Shown: positions 1 through 59,217 of the stretch, one piece after another | How positions within the stretch are numbered: the first letter of the stretch is position 1 | Layout of the letters: every line of letters begins with the position of its first letter | NCBI RefSeq assembly: GCF_031085175.1 | Contig: NZ_JAVHUY010000012.1 | Span: 1-64,000 of the forward strand | DNA length: 64,000 bases | Origin: Phytohabitans maris | GTDB taxonomy: Bacteria > Actinomycetota > Actinomycetes > Mycobacteriales > Micromonosporaceae | Reading direction: 5' to 3' | Made by a program: the position numbers and the translations under genes | The notes under the pieces: model-generated | What the model saw: only the letters and a program-made list of their open reading frames with translations | Databases searched by the model: none | Told to the model about the DNA's origin: nothing

Positions 1-3000
1 CGGCGGGGTGGCCGCGGTGGCGCCGCCGGCGGGGCGCGCGGCGGCCGGGCGGGACGCGGTGGCCGGGGCGGTCAGGGCGCCGCGCGCGGTGCCGGGCCGG
101 AACGGGGCCGGGTCGCCGTCCGCCGGGGCGGGAAGCGGCGGGCCGCCGAGTCCGAGCCGGAGGCGACCTCGCCGGAGCCCTCCAGCGCCGAGTCGCCGTC
201 CGGTGTGGATTCCGCGGCGGAGAGTACGTCGAACGCGGAGTCGGATCGGGAGGAGACCACGTCCGGCGCCGAGTCCGCCCCGGTCCGTCCCCGCCGGCGC
301 GGCGGCGAGGGTCGGGGCGCGGCCGGCACCGCTCGTGGCGGGTCCGGTGCGGGTCGTGGCCGCCGGGTGGTGCGGGTGCGTCCGGCCGGGAGCCCGGAGC
401 CGAGCGGCGTGCCCTCCAGCAGCCGGGCCACCGGGTCGACCCGGTCGGCGCGGGCGGGCCGCCGGGGCGCGGCCGAGGTCGTCGGCTCCGGACCGTACGC
501 CGGCTGGACCGTGGACGCCGTCGAGGTGCGGCCGCCGGACGGGCGGGGGGAGCCGCTCACCTACGCCGGCTACCGGGCGCCGGACCGCGCGGAGTTCGTC
601 GCGATCGACCCGGAGACCGGCGCGCCGATCGGGTCGTTCCGGCCGGGGCCGCGGGGGGCGTGGGTGCCGATCGAACCCGCTCCGGACACCGAGATGCCTG
701 ACGCCGGGTCGGAGAGCTCGGAACTGTCCGACCTGGACAGTGACGACGTCGAGCCTCCCTCCGATATGGACGCCGGCCCGCCGGCGGCCCGGCCCGAGCC
801 GCCTCGCGAGCCGGTCGGCAGCGACCTGGCGCTCTTCCTGACCGGAGCCGCGGCGGGCCCGAGCACGGCGCCTCGGGACGGTGCCCCCGCGCGGACCGGC
901 GGGGACGAGACCGGCGCCGCCGAGACCGGAAGCACCGTGATGGCCACCTTCACCGACGGCTCGTACGCCATCGCGAAGCGACCGCCGGCCGGCGCCCCGG
1001 ACTGGCACGCGGTCGGCGTCCGGATCTTCTGGCCGGACGGCACGCCCCGGGGCGGCTACGAGGCGCGCCGGCTGGTCCGCGCCGACCACGTCGCCGCCGC
1101 GCGGATGCACACCCACACCGACCTGCCGGGCGCCTTCCACCTCAACATCCTCTTCGCGACCGAGCAGAGCGACCGGGAACACCTGGACCTGGTCGGCCTC
1201 ACCGCCGAGCCGGCCCGGCGGATCCTCCGGGACGTGTACGGCGCGCAGCTGCTCCCCGGGTCGACGCCGGACGTGCACCACTACCGGATGTCGCGGGAGG
1301 CGGCCAACCGGACCGCGCGGCAGCAGCTGGCGCGGCTCGGCTGGACCGTGCACCCCGAGGGCGAGGCCCCGGCCGTCGCGGGCGGCGGGACCGGCCTCTC
1401 CGACCGCGACGCGGACCACTTCTACCAGCTCGCCAAGAGCGTCGGCTGGGACGCCGCGGGTGAGGACCGGCTGAAGCGGGCCAGGCACCGGGTGGAGAAG
1501 GGGCTCGGCACCCGTACCCCCAGGGACAAGGCCCGCGAGTTCGTGGCGCACGTGGTCGCCGAGCACCGGGAGACCGAGCCGGTCCAGCGGGCCCTCGACC
1601 AGCTCGACCTCGGCGGGCACCGGCTGTACCGGGCCACGGTCAAGGGGCGGCCGGTCGTGCTCCGGGCCCGGGTGGACGGCGCCGGGCACGTGGTCAGCGC
1701 CCGGCCGGCGACCCGGCTCGACGAGGAACTGCGCGGCCACGACCACGACTCGGTCCTGGCCGAGCTGCTCGGCGCGGGCGGCTGGACGGTGCGGGCCGGC
1801 CACGCCAGCACCGTCGACCCGGACGCGCGGCGGATCACCCTCGACTTCCACAGCACCGCCGCCTGGACCACGCTGGCCGCGGCGCACGCGATCGCGACCG
1901 GCCCGGACGCCCCGCCGCACCTCGCGATGGAGTACCGGACGTTCCGCGGCGCCCAGATCCTCCCGACCCTGCGCCGGTGGGCGCACCAGCTCCAGGAGAG
2001 GCTGACCGGAGACGAGCAGGACGTATACAGCGCCCTCGGCATCGTCGCCCGGCGCACCGCCTGGGAGGCCGGGACGCCGGCCCTGCGCGGTCCGTTCCCG
2101 GTGGACCGGCCCGAGCCGGACTCGGGCTGCGCCGGCTGGTTCCTCGGCCGCACCTGGAAGGCGGCGGTCGACCCGGACCAGCCGGTCGATCACGTGCTGC
2201 GGACCATGGGACACGAGATGTTCCACAGCGAGCAGCGCGCCGTGACCGGCCAGTGGCGGGCCAACGAGACCGGCGACCCGGCCGTGCTGGCCACGTTCAC
2301 CGACAACCGCGACGTCCAGCTCGACCTCTGGGACCCGCGACGCCGGCCGGCGGACGACGAGCGGTACCCGGCGGCCGCGAACCTCTGGACGTACGACCTC
2401 GACCGCCCCGAGGCGCGCGCCGTGAACCGCGTGCACAACCGCATCGCGAAGCTGGCCCGCGACGCCAACGACCGGCTGGCCGCCGCCCGCGCGACCGGGA
2501 GTCCCGGCGAGCGCCTCCTGGCCCGGTTCGAACGGGGCCAGGCCGCCGCCCGGCTGCTGGCGGCCGACGCCGACTCCCTCTACACCGCGCAGCTCATGGA
2601 GGCGCAGGCCTTCATGTACGTCGTGGACCTCGCGGCGGGCGGCTCGGTGCTGGACTGGACCCGGATGCCGGGCGCGCTCGTACCCGGCGGGATCGACGGG
2701 TACGACGTGACGCCGCTCGGCACGGCCGGCAGCTTCCTGCGCCCGGCGGGGTCCACTCTGGAGCCGCCGGAGCGGCTGTCCCATCCGGACCGCCCGCTCG
2801 TGGTGGTGCCGGTGGCCGATCCCGCCGACGCCGGCCGGGTGCTGCGCGAGCTGCGCGACCGGCTGCCGGCCGGGGCGCTGGTGGAGCCGCTGCTGCCCGA
2901 GCGGGTGACCGCGGAACGGGCGGTGGAGCTGGCCGAGGCGCTGGGCGAGGGGCACGTCCTGGCGATCGCCGCCGACCGGGTCAGCCCGGCCGGGGCGCTG

Positions 3001-27243: not shown

Positions 27244-28341
27244 ATGCTCGACATCGAGGAACGGTTGACGCTCGACGAGCGTTCGGCCGTCGACTTCGTC
27301 CTCAACCTGCGCAAGCGCTGGGCGGACACCGTGTACCCGGCGCTGACCCGGGAGTACGCCGCCGCGGGCGAGCCGGCGGCCACTGTGGACGCCGCCGGCC
27401 GGGTGCTGCGCGAGCTGCCGCTGTACCCGTGGTTCAGCCACCTGGAGCGGGTGCAGCAGAAGATGCTCTGGAAGGTGGCCGGCGAGGCGGTGCTCAGCCG
27501 CCGCGAGGAGCTGGCCGAGCAGCTGGCGTCGGTACCCGCCGAGCCGGCCGGGTCGCTGGCGCTCGACCCCGACCTGGAGCTGCCGGACTGGTACACCGAC
27601 TACGACATCCACATCCAGCCGGGCGGCTTCTTCTCCGACGACATGTCCGCATACGTGTACGAGTTCGGCGCCCGGATCGTGATGCTGCGCGACAACGACG
27701 GCTACAAGTTCCACCGGCTGTTCATCGAGACCGCGCTGCCGTCGATGCCGGCCGCGACCCGGGTGGTCGACATCGGCTGCGGGTTCGGCAAGAGCACCCG
27801 CCCGCTGGTCGGCCGGTACCCGACCGCGCAGGTCATCGGCATCGACCTCGCCGCCCCCGGGCTGCGGCTGGCGCACGCCGAGGCGGAGGCGGCCGGGCTG
27901 GCCGTCGACTACCGCCAGGGCGACGGCCGGGCGACCGGGCTGGAGGCGGGCTCCTGCGACGTGGTCACCGGCACGATGGTGCTGCACGAGATGCCGGCGC
28001 AGGCCATCCGGGAGACGATCCGGGAGGCGGCCCGGCTGCTCAAGCCGGGCGGGGCGCTGCGCTTCCTGGAGTTCCAGCTCACCGGCGACCCGCTGCGCGA
28101 CGCGACCGTGTACGAGCACGCCGAGCGCAACAACGAGCCCTTCTTCCACGCCCTGTTCGGTTCCGACCTGGTCGCGATGTGCGCGGAGGCCGGCCTCACC
28201 GGCGCGCGCTGGGACCCGTTCGACGAGCGGACCAAGGGGGTACAGCCGGAGGGCTGGGGCGACCGCGCCGAGTGGCACTTCCCGTGGGCGGTGCTCTCCG
28301 CGACGAAGCCGGAAGCCTCGAAGCCGGGAGCCGCCGCATGA
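27244..28341 (+). CDS. SAM-dependent methyltransferase
   Basis: A 365-residue class I methyltransferase. Residues 1 to ~165 form a helical domain of unknown role, then a Rossmann fold starts with the SAM-binding loop VVDIGCGFGKSTRPL, an acidic residue at the end of strand 2 (VIGIDLA), and GTMVLHEMP and LLKPGGALRFLEF motifs. ATG 27244 is preceded by AAGGAG. The substrate is unknown. Sitting between a possible demethylating flavoenzyme and a transporter, it may handle methyl transfer during catabolism (inference). Its stop is overlapped by a tiny ORF. Confidence 0.88.
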   Translation: MLDIEERLTLDERSAVDFVLNLRKRWADTVYPALTREYAAAGEPAATVDAAGRVLRELPLYPWFSHLERVQQKMLWKVAGEAVLSRREELAEQLASVPAEPAGSLALDPDLELPDWYTDYDIHIQPGGFFSDDMSAYVYEFGARIVMLRDNDGYKFHRLFIETALPSMPAATRVVDIGCGFGKSTRPLVGRYPTAQVIGIDLAAPGLRLAHAEAEAAGLAVDYRQGDGRATGLEAGSCDVVTGTMVLHEMPAQAIRETIREAARLLKPGGALRFLEFQLTGDPLRDATVYEHAERNNEPFFHALFGSDLVAMCAEAGLTGARWDPFDERTKGVQPEGWGDRAEWHFPWAVLSATKPEASKPGAAA

Positions 28342-28421
28342 GCGAGCGGAGCGAGCGAATCATCGGGCGCAGCGCGTATGTAGCCTCATGCCCGCCCGCG
28401 GCGAAGCGAGGACGGGCATGA
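28338..28421 (+). CDS. 27-residue bridging mini-ORF (MSERSER type)
   Basis: ATG 28338 overlaps the methyltransferase stop (ATGA), and its own TGA (28419-28421) overlaps the ATG of the next gene (ATGA). The peptide starts MSERSERIIGRSAYVAS. The DNA is a GAGCGAGCGGAGCGAGCGA-type repeat followed by a CATGCCCG...CGGGCATG hairpin that ends at the next start codon. It may be a mobile intergenic element kept in frame so that ribosomes pass from one gene to the next; the peptide itself may have no function. A structurally analogous ORF lies at 58007-58066. Confidence 0.5.
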   Translation: MSERSERIIGRSAYVASCPPAAKRGRA

Positions 28422-28729
28422 GCGTCGAGTTCGACTACTTCGGCGACCCGCGCTTCGGCAAGCTTCTCGACCTGGTGCTGCAACTGTCCACAGAGGTACA
28501 CGTGACCCGGCAGCGCGAGCGCGTGCTGGAGGCGCTGCTGGTCCGGCACGGCGTCATCGGCGCTGGCGAGGTCGACGGCTTCGCGGCCGGCGACGACGAG
28601 CAGGTGGTGCTCGACCGGGAACGGGACCAGCTCCTGGCCCGGCTGATGCGCATCCTCACCGAACAGGGCCCCGCCGAGCACCCGCTGCGCGACCAGTGGG
28701 AAGCGGCCCTGCACGGCAAGACCGGCTGA
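28418..28729 (+). CDS. Small uncharacterised helical protein
   Basis: A 103-residue soluble, mostly helical, acidic protein. It has a TRQRERVLEALLVRHGVIGAGE segment, vaguely like the short helical motif found at the start of some nitrile hydratase-type and dehydrogenase small subunits, but too weak to assign. The start overlaps the bridging mini-ORF. Position between the methyltransferase and the transporter genes suggests a small partner subunit (inference). Confidence 0.65.
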   Translation: MSVEFDYFGDPRFGKLLDLVLQLSTEVHVTRQRERVLEALLVRHGVIGAGEVDGFAAGDDEQVVLDRERDQLLARLMRILTEQGPAEHPLRDQWEAALHGKTG

Positions 28730-28791
28730 CGGTCTCGCCTCCCCACGACCCGGTCCGACCGATCTGACGAGTCAATTCGAGGGGTGTCCAC

Positions 28792-29904
28792 ATGAGATAC
28801 AAGACGGGTCTGCTGCCGGCGGCGTTGGCCGCCGTGGTGGCACTGGCTGGATGTGGGGGATCCGGCGACGACGCGGGTGCCGAGCAGGGCGCGCCGGCGA
28901 AGCTCACCTTCGCCATCGCCTCCGCCGTCATCGGCCCGAAGGAGGAGGTCGCCGTCTTCGCGGTGGCCAAGGAGCTGGGCTACTTCGAGGAGGAGAAGCT
29001 CACCGTCGAGACGATCAACACCGACGGTTCGGTCGCGGCGCTGCAGGCGGTCGCCTCCGGAAGCGGTGACGTCACCGCCGCCGACACCGGTTCGATCCTC
29101 GGCGCGACCGAGAAGAACGTGCCGGTCAAGGCGATCGGCGGCCTGGTGCAGAACTGGCCGTGGGTGATCGCGGTCAAGCCGGGCAGCACGATCGCCGGCG
29201 GCGGCGACCTCAAGGGCAAGAAGATCGGCGTGATCAGCCTGGCGTCGGGCTCCGCCCCGTACGCGCGGGCGTTCGTCGCCGAGGCCGGCCTGGACCCGGC
29301 CAAGGACGTCGAGCTGCTGCCGGTCGGTGTCGGCGCGCAGGCCGCCGCCGCCCTCAACGACGGCAAGGTGGACGCGCTGGCGCTCTACACGCAGGCGTAC
29401 ACGGTGATCGAGAACGCCGGCACCACGCTGACGTACCTCGACAACCCGGACGTCTTCGACGGCATCCGCTCGCTGAGCTTCGCCGTCGGGGCGCGCACGC
29501 TGGAGGAGAAGCGGGACGTCTACACCCGGTTCCTGCGCGCCTCGTACAAGGCGATGCTCTTCTCCGCCAAGAACCCGGAGGCGGCGATGCGCATCGGGTA
29601 CAAGGTGTTTCCGCAGATCCTGGCCGGCAAGCAGGCCGACGCGCAGATCGCCACGGACACCAAGGTGCTGACCGCCTGGCTGAAGACCGCCACGCCCACC
29701 ACCGGTACGCCCGAGCAGTGGGGCGACTGGGGCGCGATCAGCGACCAGGAGTGGGCCAAGACCCAGGCGTACACGAAGCAGGCCGGACAGATCACCGGGG
29801 ACGTCGAGCTGGGGAAGGTGTGGGAGCCGGGCCTGCTCGGCGCGGCCAACCAGTTCGACAAGGCCGCGGTGGTCGACAAGGCCGCCGGCTACACGGCGAA
29901 GTAG
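28792..29904 (+). CDS. ABC transporter substrate-binding lipoprotein (NitT/TauT/SsuA family)
   Basis: A 370-residue lipoprotein with lipobox LAGC (residue ~22) after a short signal peptide. The mature part has the periplasmic-binding type 2 fold of the NMT1/THI5-SsuA group (FAVAKELGYFEEEKL, ALQAVASGSGDVTAADTGSIL, LKGKKIGVISLASGS, DALALYTQAY). It captures a solute outside the cell for the ATPase and permease encoded next. Family ligands include sulfonates, nitrate, pyrimidine precursors, aromatic acids and taurine, so the ligand cannot be named. Confidence 0.92.
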   Translation: MRYKTGLLPAALAAVVALAGCGGSGDDAGAEQGAPAKLTFAIASAVIGPKEEVAVFAVAKELGYFEEEKLTVETINTDGSVAALQAVASGSGDVTAADTGSILGATEKNVPVKAIGGLVQNWPWVIAVKPGSTIAGGGDLKGKKIGVISLASGSAPYARAFVAEAGLDPAKDVELLPVGVGAQAAAALNDGKVDALALYTQAYTVIENAGTTLTYLDNPDVFDGIRSLSFAVGARTLEEKRDVYTRFLRASYKAMLFSAKNPEAAMRIGYKVFPQILAGKQADAQIATDTKVLTAWLKTATPTTGTPEQWGDWGAISDQEWAKTQAYTKQAGQITGDVELGKVWEPGLLGAANQFDKAAVVDKAAGYTAK

Positions 29905-56843: not shown

Positions 56844-56847
<4 letters not shown>

Positions 56848-58010
56848 CCACGGACGTACTGATCACTGGCTGGGCGCACTCGCGGTTCGGCAAGCTCGAC
56901 GAGGGGATCGAGGCGCTCGTCGTGGGCGTGGCGGCCGAGGCGATCGCCGCGGCCGGGCTCGAACCCGAGGCGATCGACGCCATCTACTACGGCCAGTTCA
57001 ACGCGGGCATGCACCCGCTGGCGTTCGCGTCGTCGCTGGCGCTGCAGGCCGACGACGGGCTGTGGGGCAAGCCGGCGACCCGGGTGGAGAACGCCTGCGC
57101 CTCCGGTGCCGCCGCCGTACACAGTGGACTGCTGGCGCTCCGCGCCGGGGCGGCCCGCAACGTCCTGGTGGTCGGCGCCGAGAAGATGACCCACGCCGGC
57201 GCGGACGTCGTGGGGGCGAGCCTGCTCGGCGCCGACTACGACACCGCCGGCCGCGCCTCGTCCACCGGCTTCGCCGGGCTCTTCGCCGAGGTGGCCGACG
57301 AGTACGCGCGCCGCTACGGCGACTGCGCCGACACGCTCGGGACGATCGCCGCCAAGAGCCACCGCAACGCGCTCGACAACCCGTACGCGCACCTGCGCAA
57401 GCCGCTCGACGAGGCGTTCTGCCGCACGGAGTCGCCGGCCAACCCGCGGGTCGCCGGCATCCTGCGCCGCACCGACTGCTCACCGATCTCGGACGGCGCG
57501 GCCGCCCTGGTGCTCGGCCGGGAACGCTCCGCGGCGGCCCGCCATCCCGCGGTGCGCTTCCTCGGCGTGGGGCAGGCCAACGACTACCTGCCCGCCGGCC
57601 GCCGCGACCCGGTCGCGTTCGCCGCCAGCCGGGTGGCCTGGGACCGGGCGATGGCGATGGCCGGGACCGGGACCCGCGACCTCTCCTTCCTCGAGGTGCA
57701 CGACTGCTTCACCATCGCCGAGCTGGTGCTCTACGAGACGCTGGGGCTCGCGGCCCCCGGCAAGGGCGCCCAGCTGCTGGCCGACGGCGTCGTGTACCGG
57801 GACGGGGCGCTGCCGGTCAACCCCTCCGGCGGGCTGAAGTCCAAGGGGCACCCGGTCGGCGCCACCGGCGTCAGCCAGCACGTGCTGGCCGCCATGCAGC
57901 TCACCGGCACCGCCGGCGCGCTCCAGCTGGACCGGGCCGACCGCGCGGCGGTACACAACATGGGCGGGCTGGCCGTGGCCAACTACGTGAGCATCCTGGA
58001 GGCGGCATGA
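56844..58010 (+). CDS. Thiolase-family acyltransferase (SCP2/lipid-transfer type)
   Basis: A 388-residue thiolase homologue with nucleophilic Cys in [11 protein letters not shown], catalytic His in [11 protein letters not shown] and in [11 protein letters not shown]; the last Cys-containing loop of classical thiolases is replaced by an NMGG segment. This is the SCP-x-like subgroup that cleaves or forms branched-chain 3-oxoacyl-CoAs. It follows the CoA-transferase genes as the logical next step: 3-oxoacyl-CoA to acetyl- or propionyl-CoA plus a shortened acyl-CoA. Its stop is overlapped by a tiny ORF. Confidence 0.9.
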
Positions 58011-58066
58011 GCGCGGAGCGAAGCGGAGTGCGAGTGCTTCGCCGTCGTGGTGGGGCGGCGGCGTGA
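58007..58066 (+). CDS. 19-residue bridging mini-ORF
   Basis: ATG 58007 overlaps the thiolase stop (ATGA), and its TGA (58064-58066) overlaps the GTG of the CaiB gene (GTGA). The peptide begins [10 protein letters not shown]. Architecture and opening codons resemble the mini-ORF at 28338-28421, and the DNA has the same GAGCGAAGCGGAG type of sequence. It probably serves to carry translation across an inserted spacer. Confidence 0.45.
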   Translation: MSAERSGVRVLRRRGGAAA

Positions 58067-59217
58067 CGCCGCGCCCGCTGGACGGCGTGACCGTGGTCTC
58101 GATCGAGCAGGCCGTCGCCGCGCCGCTGGCCACCCGGCACCTCGCCGACCTCGGGGCGCGCGTGATCAAGATCGAGCGGCCCGGCTCGGGTGACTTCGCG
58201 CGCGCGTACGACGAGACGGTCCAGGGGCTCTCCAGCCACTTCGTGTGGCTCAACCGCAGCAAGGAGTCCGTGGTCCTGGACCTGAAGTCCGGCACCGGCC
58301 GGCGGGCGATCCAGGCGCTCGCGGCCCGGGCGGACGTGTTCGTGCACAACATCGGCCCGCGGGCCGCCGCGCGCCTGGGGCTCGACGCGGCCACGCTCCG
58401 CGCGGCGCACCCCGCCCTGGTGCACGTCTGCGTCTCCGGCTTCGGCCCGGACGGCCCGTACTCGGACCGGAAGGCGTACGACCTGATCGTCCAGTGCGAG
58501 GCGGGGCTGGTCTCCATCACCGGTACGCCGCAGACGCCCAGCAAGGTCGGCATCCCGGTCGCCGACATCGCGGCCGGGATGTACGCCTACGCGGGCGCGC
58601 TCGCCGCCCTGGTCCGCCGTGGCCGCACCGGCGAGGGCGCGACGGTCGAGGTGTCGATGCTGGAGGCGCTGGCCGAGTGGATGGGCTTCCCGCTCAACTT
58701 CACCATGTACGGCGGGGTCGCGCCCGCCCGCACCGGGGCCTCGCACGCGGCCATCGCGCCGTACGGGCCGTTCCGCTGCGCCGGCGGGCAGGTCTTCCTC
58801 GGGGTCCAGAACGAGCGGGAGTGGTCCGCGTTCTGCCGCGAGGTGCTCGGTGATCCCTCCCTTGTGGACGACGAGCGGTTCGCCGCGAACATGCGGCGGG
58901 TCGAGCGCCGGGCGGAGCTGACGGCCGTGATCGAGGAACGGTTCGCCGCCCTCTCCGCCGACGAGGTGGCCGCCCGCCTCGACGCGGCCGGGATCGCCAA
59001 CGCCCGGCTCCGGGAGCTGTCCAGCCTGGCCGGGCACCCCCAGCTGCTGGCCCGGAACCGGTGGCGCGACGTCGGCTCCCCGGTCGGCATGCTCCGCCAG
59101 CTGCTTCCCCCGGCGCTGCCGGACGGGCTGGAGCCGCCGCTCGGCCCCATCCCGGCCCTCGGCGAGCACACCGACGCGGTCCTGGCCGAGCTCGGCCTCG
59201 ACCTGGCCCGGGCATGA
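58063..59217 (+). CDS. CaiB/BaiF-family (class III) CoA-transferase, second copy
   Basis: A 384-residue enzyme (VVSIEQAVAAPLATRHLADLG, NRSKESVVLDLKSG, VFVHNIGPRAAARLGL, VSGFGPDGPYSD) with the catalytic Asp in GIPVADIAAGMYA. It transfers CoA to another carboxylate, likely the entry substrate of this operon, while the two-subunit enzyme serves a later 3-oxo acid (inference). Last gene of the operon. Confidence 0.92.
   Translation: MTPRPLDGVTVVSIEQAVAAPLATRHLADLGARVIKIERPGSGDFARAYDETVQGLSSHFVWLNRSKESVVLDLKSGTGRRAIQALAARADVFVHNIGPRAAARLGLDAATLRAAHPALVHVCVSGFGPDGPYSDRKAYDLIVQCEAGLVSITGTPQTPSKVGIPVADIAAGMYAYAGALAALVRRGRTGEGATVEVSMLEALAEWMGFPLNFTMYGGVAPARTGASHAAIAPYGPFRCAGGQVFLGVQNEREWSAFCREVLGDPSLVDDERFAANMRRVERRAELTAVIEERFAALSADEVAARLDAAGIANARLRELSSLAGHPQLLARNRWRDVGSPVGMLRQLLPPALPDGLEPPLGPIPALGEHTDAVLAELGLDLARA

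Follow-up and report, generated by a model that had tools for sequence, protein, structure and literature searches.

An 80-bp mobile repeat located at start codons in Phytohabitans maris probably acts as a ribosome relay to the downstream gene

The mini-ORF of 27 codons that joins a methyltransferase gene to the next gene in the window (the whole stretch analysed, 64,000 nucleotides of Phytohabitans maris, contig NZ_JAVHUY010000012.1, positions 1 to 64,000) belongs to a repeat of 80 bp, which is mobile and is located at start codons generally. It is best explained, with a probability of roughly 0.85, as a small non-autonomous mobile element that inserts 3' of a start RTGA and whose mini-ORF serves as a relay, with restart at the downstream gene. 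The features are listed in Table 1.

Table 1. Features of the two stop-start bridges in the window (positions are those of the window; HP-L and HP-R are the left and right hairpins; pairs are numbered by alignment columns).
Feature	Position	Strand	Remark
Upstream gene, class I SAM methyltransferase, 365 aa	27244..28341	+	Pfam Methyltransf_25, E 1.1e-20
ATGA at the left (RTGA in the family), presumed target; stop of the upstream gene and start of the mini-ORF	28338..28341	+	
Element of 80 bp, inserted 3' of the target RTGA, with its own RTGA at the end	28342..28421	+	deduced from other loci
Mini-ORF of 27 codons, ATG to TGA, bridging both genes	28338..28421	+	
Right RTGA; mini-ORF stop and downstream start codon	28418..28421	+	
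Downstream gene, 103 aa	28418..28729	+	no Pfam family at E 0.001
GAGGA, Shine-Dalgarno-like, 5 nt before the right start codon	28408..28412	+	
HP-L, holds the left start codon	28338..28360	+	covarying pairs 1-23, 5-19
HP-R, right start codon in its 3' arm, GCGAAGC tip	28385..28422	+	covarying pairs 52-81, 54-79
Second mini-ORF, 19 codons, ATGA to GTGA, 56 bp apart	58007..58066	+	between ORFs 56844-58010 and 58063-59217

The methyltransferase stop (TGA, 28339-28341) lies within the first ATGA, and the mini-ORF, which starts with MSERSERIIGRSAYVAS and comprises 27 codons followed by TGA (28419-28421), ends within the second ATGA, the start of the next ORF. The original prediction of a mini-ORF bound to both neighbours by ATGA overlaps is thus confirmed to the nucleotide. 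The distance between the two ATGA is 80 bp, i.e. 3n+2, so that the ATG of one reads through to the TGA of the next. The left boundary of the element was set by comparison of a filled and an empty uppP site (see below), and the R at the right boundary tracks its stem partner. A consensus scan of 28100-28700 gave no terminator-like or sigma-70-like site, and no match to Rfam 15 covariance models up to E 1 was found in 27800-28900.

The right end of the element (a 21-base pattern, at most 1 mismatch) was counted 79 times in the draft genome of 9.87 Mb and its reversed pattern does not occur at all, in agreement with the earlier view of a repetitive element; a DNA search with the unit gave at least 52 matches among the 40 of 136 candidates scored. 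Since the pattern fixes the right end, the GAGGA-type site included, conservation of that end in the 79 copies is by construction. The left end, defined as RTGA plus a loose left motif with no condition on frame, was recognised in 74 of the 79. Among these, 45 copies are 80 bp and 19 are 71 bp long, and single copies measure 95, 47, 74, 77, 53, 65, 59, 82, 81 and 57 bp; the 71-bp class may be a single inherited variant. A length of 3n+2 is kept in 71/74 copies (26/29 of those differing from 80 bp), and in 71/74 the mini-ORF stops on the TGA of the right RTGA. The three exceptions are the 81-bp copy (C35:22735), where the mini-ORF continues into the downstream gene (456 codons), the 82-bp copy, where it stops slightly past the start, and the 57-bp copy, which is the first unit in a mixed array. 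In L147, an additional copy detected through its left end, the frame likewise runs into the downstream gene, over 319 codons. N-terminal fusions arise upon a frame slip, and gene starts near such units are easily misannotated.

The position of the copies is equally regular. Among the right ends with no further unit behind them (n = 66), 65 begin a frame that is 90 codons or longer and has a GC3 of 0.83 or higher, and the remaining one opens a frame of 52 codons; genes behind the element were read as nuoD, secF, purH and trpA, among others. When the element is removed from the sequence, a start-like site is left in 59/62 copies (a set without the 5 copies lacking a left end and without those preceding another unit), as compared with 78/490 RTGA sites of the window. 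A laxer control, any RTGA opening a long frame, gave 263/492 and was replaced by the start-like test. A Shine-Dalgarno-like 4-mer precedes the left start in 39/61 copies not located behind another unit and in 69/494 window RTGA sites. In 35/74 copies an upstream coding frame has its stop at the left TGA, and in 16 a coding stop is located elsewhere within -130 to +60; 13 copies follow another unit, and 10 have no such upstream stop. It had been proposed that the element inserts between operon genes while preserving their coupling. Retention of the frame holds (71/74), and the restriction to operon genes does not, as start codons in general are occupied.

Mobility of the element follows from empty sites in sister genomes. 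The joined flanks of nine loci were searched in six genomes of the genus (a tenth flank piece was excluded because it contained another unit), and 19 empty sites were found at 7/9 loci, all of them with a single RTGA where the orthologous gene starts. Fifteen of these alignments come from six loci (purH 2, dapB 1, nuoD 3, uppP 3, purQ 2, cofE 4; gene names are our reading of the downstream proteins) and four from argD; glyA and rpiB were not aligned in this search. The flanks are colinear, in some cases with small indels. As judged by coordinates, dapB is filled in genome G091, and purQ and glyA are filled in G103. The uppP locus has ATGACC when empty (G091) and ATGAGC...ATGACC when filled, which places the insert after the target RTGA. 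The flanks of the window locus itself were not found in five sister genomes, and so it has no empty site to be compared. In tandem arrays the units follow each other in steps of exactly 80 bp; one junction holds three units here and one in P. suffuscus, and at two loci (L121, L105) the insertion is common to sister genomes. Carriage by plasmids or phages was considered and set aside, as neither the 72,556 plasmid records nor the 50,697 phage records gave a match at E 1e-5.

The family extends beyond the genus. The exact right end is present in 11/300 genomes of the family Micromonosporaceae, the 6 searched Phytohabitans genomes included, and in 29 stretches of a named species collection. It was found in Phytohabitans, Actinopolymorpha, Kribbella, Nocardioides, Micromonospora and Couchioplanes, as well as in Streptomyces sp. 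SID13031; a single Bifidobacteriaceae contig with this end looks like a chance match. The covariance model R1 detects the element in 35/394 Actinomycetes genomes and 17/138 genera, and its copy numbers are lower bounds (strict filters, at most 11 candidates scored per genome). Three genomes of the same order outside the family are among the R1 matches (best E 3.9e-9). Of 89 matches that were read (29 loci from 29 genomes and 60 chosen further places), 84 have as their first stop in frame a TGA that overlaps with an RTG, and 5 are exceptions. The arrangement had been expected to be fortuitous if homologues were usually out of frame or off the stop and start codons; they are in frame and on these codons both here (71/74) and elsewhere (84/89). 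That 155 of the 163 copies examined end the mini-ORF on the next start makes this a testable general rule. The left module RTGAGCGAGCGNAGCGAGCGAAY is widely common across genera and the right half differs between them. A Shine-Dalgarno-like 4-mer precedes the right start in 61/84 copies from other genomes, and 22 of the 23 copies lacking it come from one genus (g90).

The two RTGA of a copy are most likely of different origin. Their R is identical in 90/106 copies. Where the two R are unlike (16 copies), the guide base, at column 23 or its counterpart, pairs 15 times with the left R and once with the right R; for the base of the 5' arm, the partner is the right R in 13 copies and the left R in 2. 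As the left R thus goes with the guide base and the right R with its stem arm, we take the left RTGA to be the target and the right RTGA, most likely, to be a part of the element. It is also conceivable that 4 bp of the target were duplicated and changed afterwards.

Each start codon is held in a hairpin. The stem of HP-L would be built of A-T, T-A, two G.A, G-C, C-G, two G.A, G-C and C-G pairs and be closed by a GNA triloop, with the freely varying column 12 as the N. By standard rules this hairpin is weak (ViennaRNA: -3.5 kcal/mol and z -0.1 as RNA, -0.7 as DNA). The hairpin predicted behind the repeat-like DNA proved to be well founded: HP-R (28385-28422) folds as RNA at -27.3 kcal/mol with z -5.9. 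Mini-hairpins with GNA loops are described as extraordinarily stable in DNA, and GCGAAGC, which is the tip of HP-R, melts at 78 °C (excerpt of PMC4686876).

Covariation was evaluated as mutual information with average-product correction in 71 gap-free units. Complementary pairs take ranks 1, 2, 3 and 10, namely 54-79 (C-G 33, G-C 31), 52-81 (T-A 50, C-G 14), 5-19 (G-C 63, C-G 6) and 1-23 (A-T 55, G-C 8); pairs without a structural role, e.g. 20-21, 39-55 and 45-51, stand between those ranks. When changes were mapped on a tree computed from the other columns, those affecting both partners lead from one Watson-Crick pair to another in 13/14, 11/12, 5/5 and 6/6 cases. The non-pairing columns 1-52 and 23-81 also show 6 and 4 joint changes (1.3 expected), and thus the two ends vary together to some extent. 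In alignment A1, 97.9% of the cells pair, as compared with 93.5% after shuffling and at most 37.9% after sliding. Its covariation score and the number of cells changed on both sides exceed 500/500 shuffles; less clear are the number of pairs with double changes, reached by 79/500 shuffles, and the pair types, reached by 32/500.

The covariation in the left module may bear on how the site is chosen. It is quite possible, if not the favoured outcome, that the element moves by guide-directed single-strand transposition of the IS200/IS605 kind, and this would form the mobility half of the best explanation: the target RTGA with the first base of the element would pair with columns 19-23, and the end RTGA with columns 49-52. 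In IS608 and ISDra2 the target pairs with an internal guide and the right end with a second one (excerpts of PMC5934647 and PMC6006769). The counts agree with such pairing and suggest that target-element pairing may contribute to site choice. The left R and the guide base form A-T in 66, G-C in 14, G-T in 5 and A-C in 4 copies (p 3.6e-9; 17/106 copies without a readable guide base are left out). In other genomes the numbers are A-T 54, G-C 21, A-C 4, A-G 1 and G-T 1 (p 2.6e-14; 81/89 matches with a gap-free left module), so that 75/81 are A-T or G-C, counted in copies found by model R1, which itself scores and favours this pair; the high-scoring part alone gives AT 16, GC 7, AC 1 and GT 1 (p 1.3e-4). 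The 16 copies with unlike R described above point the same way. Moreover, the pairing of column 5 with column 19 corresponds to +1:+15, the spacing of G+1:C+15 in ISDra2 (PMC5934647, as excerpted). Insertion 3' of a short sequence that is kept at the left, as at uppP, is likewise a feature of IS200/IS605 in the excerpts cited. On the other side, an RNA hairpin could give the same covariation of columns 1-23, and the joint variation of the two ends (1-52 and 23-81) indicates that part of the signal reflects subfamilies or a shared type of start. In IS608 the guide lies 5' of the hairpin, whereas here the left hairpin stands between target and guide, and the guide-like columns 19-23 are the 3' side of that hairpin. 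The element also differs from IS200/IS605 in its length of 80 bp, in its location at start codons in sense orientation, and in the lack of a Y1 transposase, PF01797 being found in 0/6 Phytohabitans genomes.

A resident mobiliser of the Y1/RAYT type was not found in these genomes of Phytohabitans. In Actinomycetes as a whole PF01797 occurs in 11/35 element-bearing and 53/359 element-free genomes (the same draw being assumed); this mild excess is concentrated in one family (f19), and the domain is absent from genomes G000, G434, G474 and G584. REPs, associated with RAYT (TnpAREP), resemble the element in being short palindromic repeats of high copy number that are probably non-autonomous. In REPs the hairpin is preceded on its 5' side by GTAG/GTGG, and their location is largely intergenic (PMC6006769, as excerpted), whereas columns 44-47 here are mostly GAGC or GTGC, with G at column 47 in 7/71 units, and an RTGA at either end encloses an ORF that is kept in frame. 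A search for autonomous copies by the left end gave 63 matches, seven of them outside the catalogue (L039 included), and no longer autonomous copy was identified among the 63. The extras comprise L142 (71 bp), L147 (72 bp), L146 (35 bp), L143 with another right half and L145 with no unit. In L143 (1435-1516, G000:C65) a normal left module is followed by an unrelated right half with GAGGAG, GTGA and an in-frame end, and the right module seems to be exchangeable. In L144 (G000:C66:1-1400) the left module occurs without the right one, between inverted copies of GGGCCTGTATCAAA and some 150 bp from an ORF of a DDE_5 transposase (E 1.8e-39) on the other strand. This ORF probably belongs to another IS and is still a lead to the mobiliser.

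A broader version of the pairing idea, to which we give slightly less weight, is that of a class of mobile DNA which finds start codons by base pairing, with C and T variants of the guide taking GTGA and ATGA, and which spreads in Actinomycetes by means of an unrecognised enzyme. The guide would reside in the hairpin with tandem G.A pairs and a GNA loop, and the gene would be repaid with a new start and often with a ribosome site of its own. If so, it would be a natural system that addresses start codons.

The hairpins may instead act in mRNA alone, by hiding the start codons so that a gene would be translated only upon arrival of a ribosome from upstream, with insertion being unspecific and copies elsewhere lost by selection. 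The great stability of HP-R as RNA, with the downstream start codon held in it, and the strong selection on frame are in line with this. We consider it unlikely, since insertions between convergent genes or behind stop codons should then be harmless, yet 59/62 sites are start-like; furthermore, the mini-ORF would have its own start hidden in HP-L, a hairpin that is weak as RNA.

For the relay reading the following course of events is proposed. The element would insert immediately 3' of an RTGA at a gene start, in the direction of the gene, and the gene would thereby be cut off from its ribosome site. That site, together with the old start codon, would now drive the mini-ORF of 3n+2 length. HP-R would keep the right start closed until a ribosome of the mini-ORF opens the hairpin, and the downstream gene would in this way depend on the mini-ORF. 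The ribosome would stop at the TGA of the new RTGA, and the downstream gene would restart by termination-reinitiation, in most copies read next to the GAGGA/GGAGG-like site of the element itself. To judge from sequence, the gene behind the element is probably still translatable. The ribosome relay put forward in the original prediction finds support in the frame and in the placement of stops and starts given above for both sets of copies, from which passage of ribosomes through the mini-ORF may be deduced. For termination-reinitiation the copies amount to natural experiments, since a given gene can be compared in the presence and absence of the unit, behind one to three units, and with and without the Shine-Dalgarno-like site.

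That the mini-ORF yields a useful peptide (MSERSERII...), with coupling as a by-product, is very improbable. Frame 1 is open in all 71 distinct 80-bp units (from this genome and named relatives), internal stops numbering 0, 10 and 27 in frames 1, 2 and 3, and third codon positions are slightly more variable than the other two (mean entropy 0.60 vs 0.44 and 0.40), as a peptide would have it. Against it, the middle of the peptide varies freely between copies, up to 11 codons are lost and 5 gained in frame (lengths of 47 to 95), and the right half changes from genus to genus with the RTG ending retained; a functional peptide is disfavoured on these grounds. Chance overlaps of stops and starts in G+C-rich DNA with short repeats, for which the bridge at 58007 with no clear family might speak, are refuted for the element at 28338 by 79 copies against zero control matches, the empty sites, the start-like sites and the length rule.

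The family works like a MIRU (mycobacterial interspersed repetitive unit), and in this respect the concept is not new in kind. According to PMC12548453 (in the excerpt), MIRUs are short, apparently mobile repeats with start codons as their insertion sites and with an ORF that is coupled at -4 nt to the gene behind, and the units between senX3 and regX3 measure 77 bp and 53 bp (excerpt of PMC4213456), both of them also 3n+2. As with the MIRUs of these excerpts, a small ORF overlaps the flanking stop and start (here 71/74 end on RTGA and 35/74 start on the upstream TGA), and start codons are occupied in the direction of the gene by a mobile unit (59/62 start-like sites, 19 empty sites at 7 loci). 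Promoter activity has been reported for MIRUs (PMC4213456, likewise an excerpt). Short upstream ORFs are known to deliver ribosomes to the next start (PMC12548453); here a mobile repeat brings the short ORF to dozens of loci. The exact right end occurs in 0/29 of the species-collection stretches under a title of Mycobacterium; common descent with MIRUs is conceivable.

The relay concept itself reportedly originates from an idea put forward in 1997 for mycobacterial repeats, and the MIRUs of the 1997 paper are said to have no clear dyad symmetry. The element differs from MIRUs so described by its two hairpins with four covarying pairs and both start codons inside. No published description of this element was found in an open-licence library of papers. 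What is new to us is the family with its distribution, its pair of covarying hairpins and its internal ribosome site, together with the length rule established by counting.

The bridge at 58007-58066 had been taken for a second case. Its geometry, with overlaps from ATGA to GTGA, is as claimed, but it is not the same element: it scores 7.0 bits (E 4) against model R1, and a search with its own sequence gave no match but itself above 42 bits among the 40 of 120 candidates scored, so it was rejected as a family member. Its stop-start overlap could also have arisen by chance. A loosely similar bridge is found in L054 (~1495-1540, minus strand, 44 bp); both this and the 56-bp bridge are 3n+2, and together they may represent a third family of small size.

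Another repeat, 74-75 bp long and with no evident similarity in sequence to the 80-bp element, RTGAGCGGGAGTCGCGAGGC...GAGCGCCGAGCGRCGGAGCGGGGTAGGC (L182-L197, L038), was also observed, for example at G000:C10:74673-74885 and C78:43238-43377, with 28 core matches in this genome and 0 in the control. Many of its copies hold a mini-ORF of 23 codons ending with TAG 2-3 nt before the next ATG or GTG; in five copies with the TAG changed or out of frame, the frame is open for at least 250 codons. At the argD start (G000:C61:7766-7920, L038) both repeats stand in series, and four sister genomes are empty there.

Some right ends have no left module (L120, minus strand, ~600; C8:192484 and C41:4903 in G000). 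They are located at gene starts or ahead of a full unit, and are perhaps decayed or partial insertions. At G000:C56:225948-226087 (L045), units of 57, 59 and 80 bp stand in a row before the gene read as trpA, the first two having a different inner sequence.
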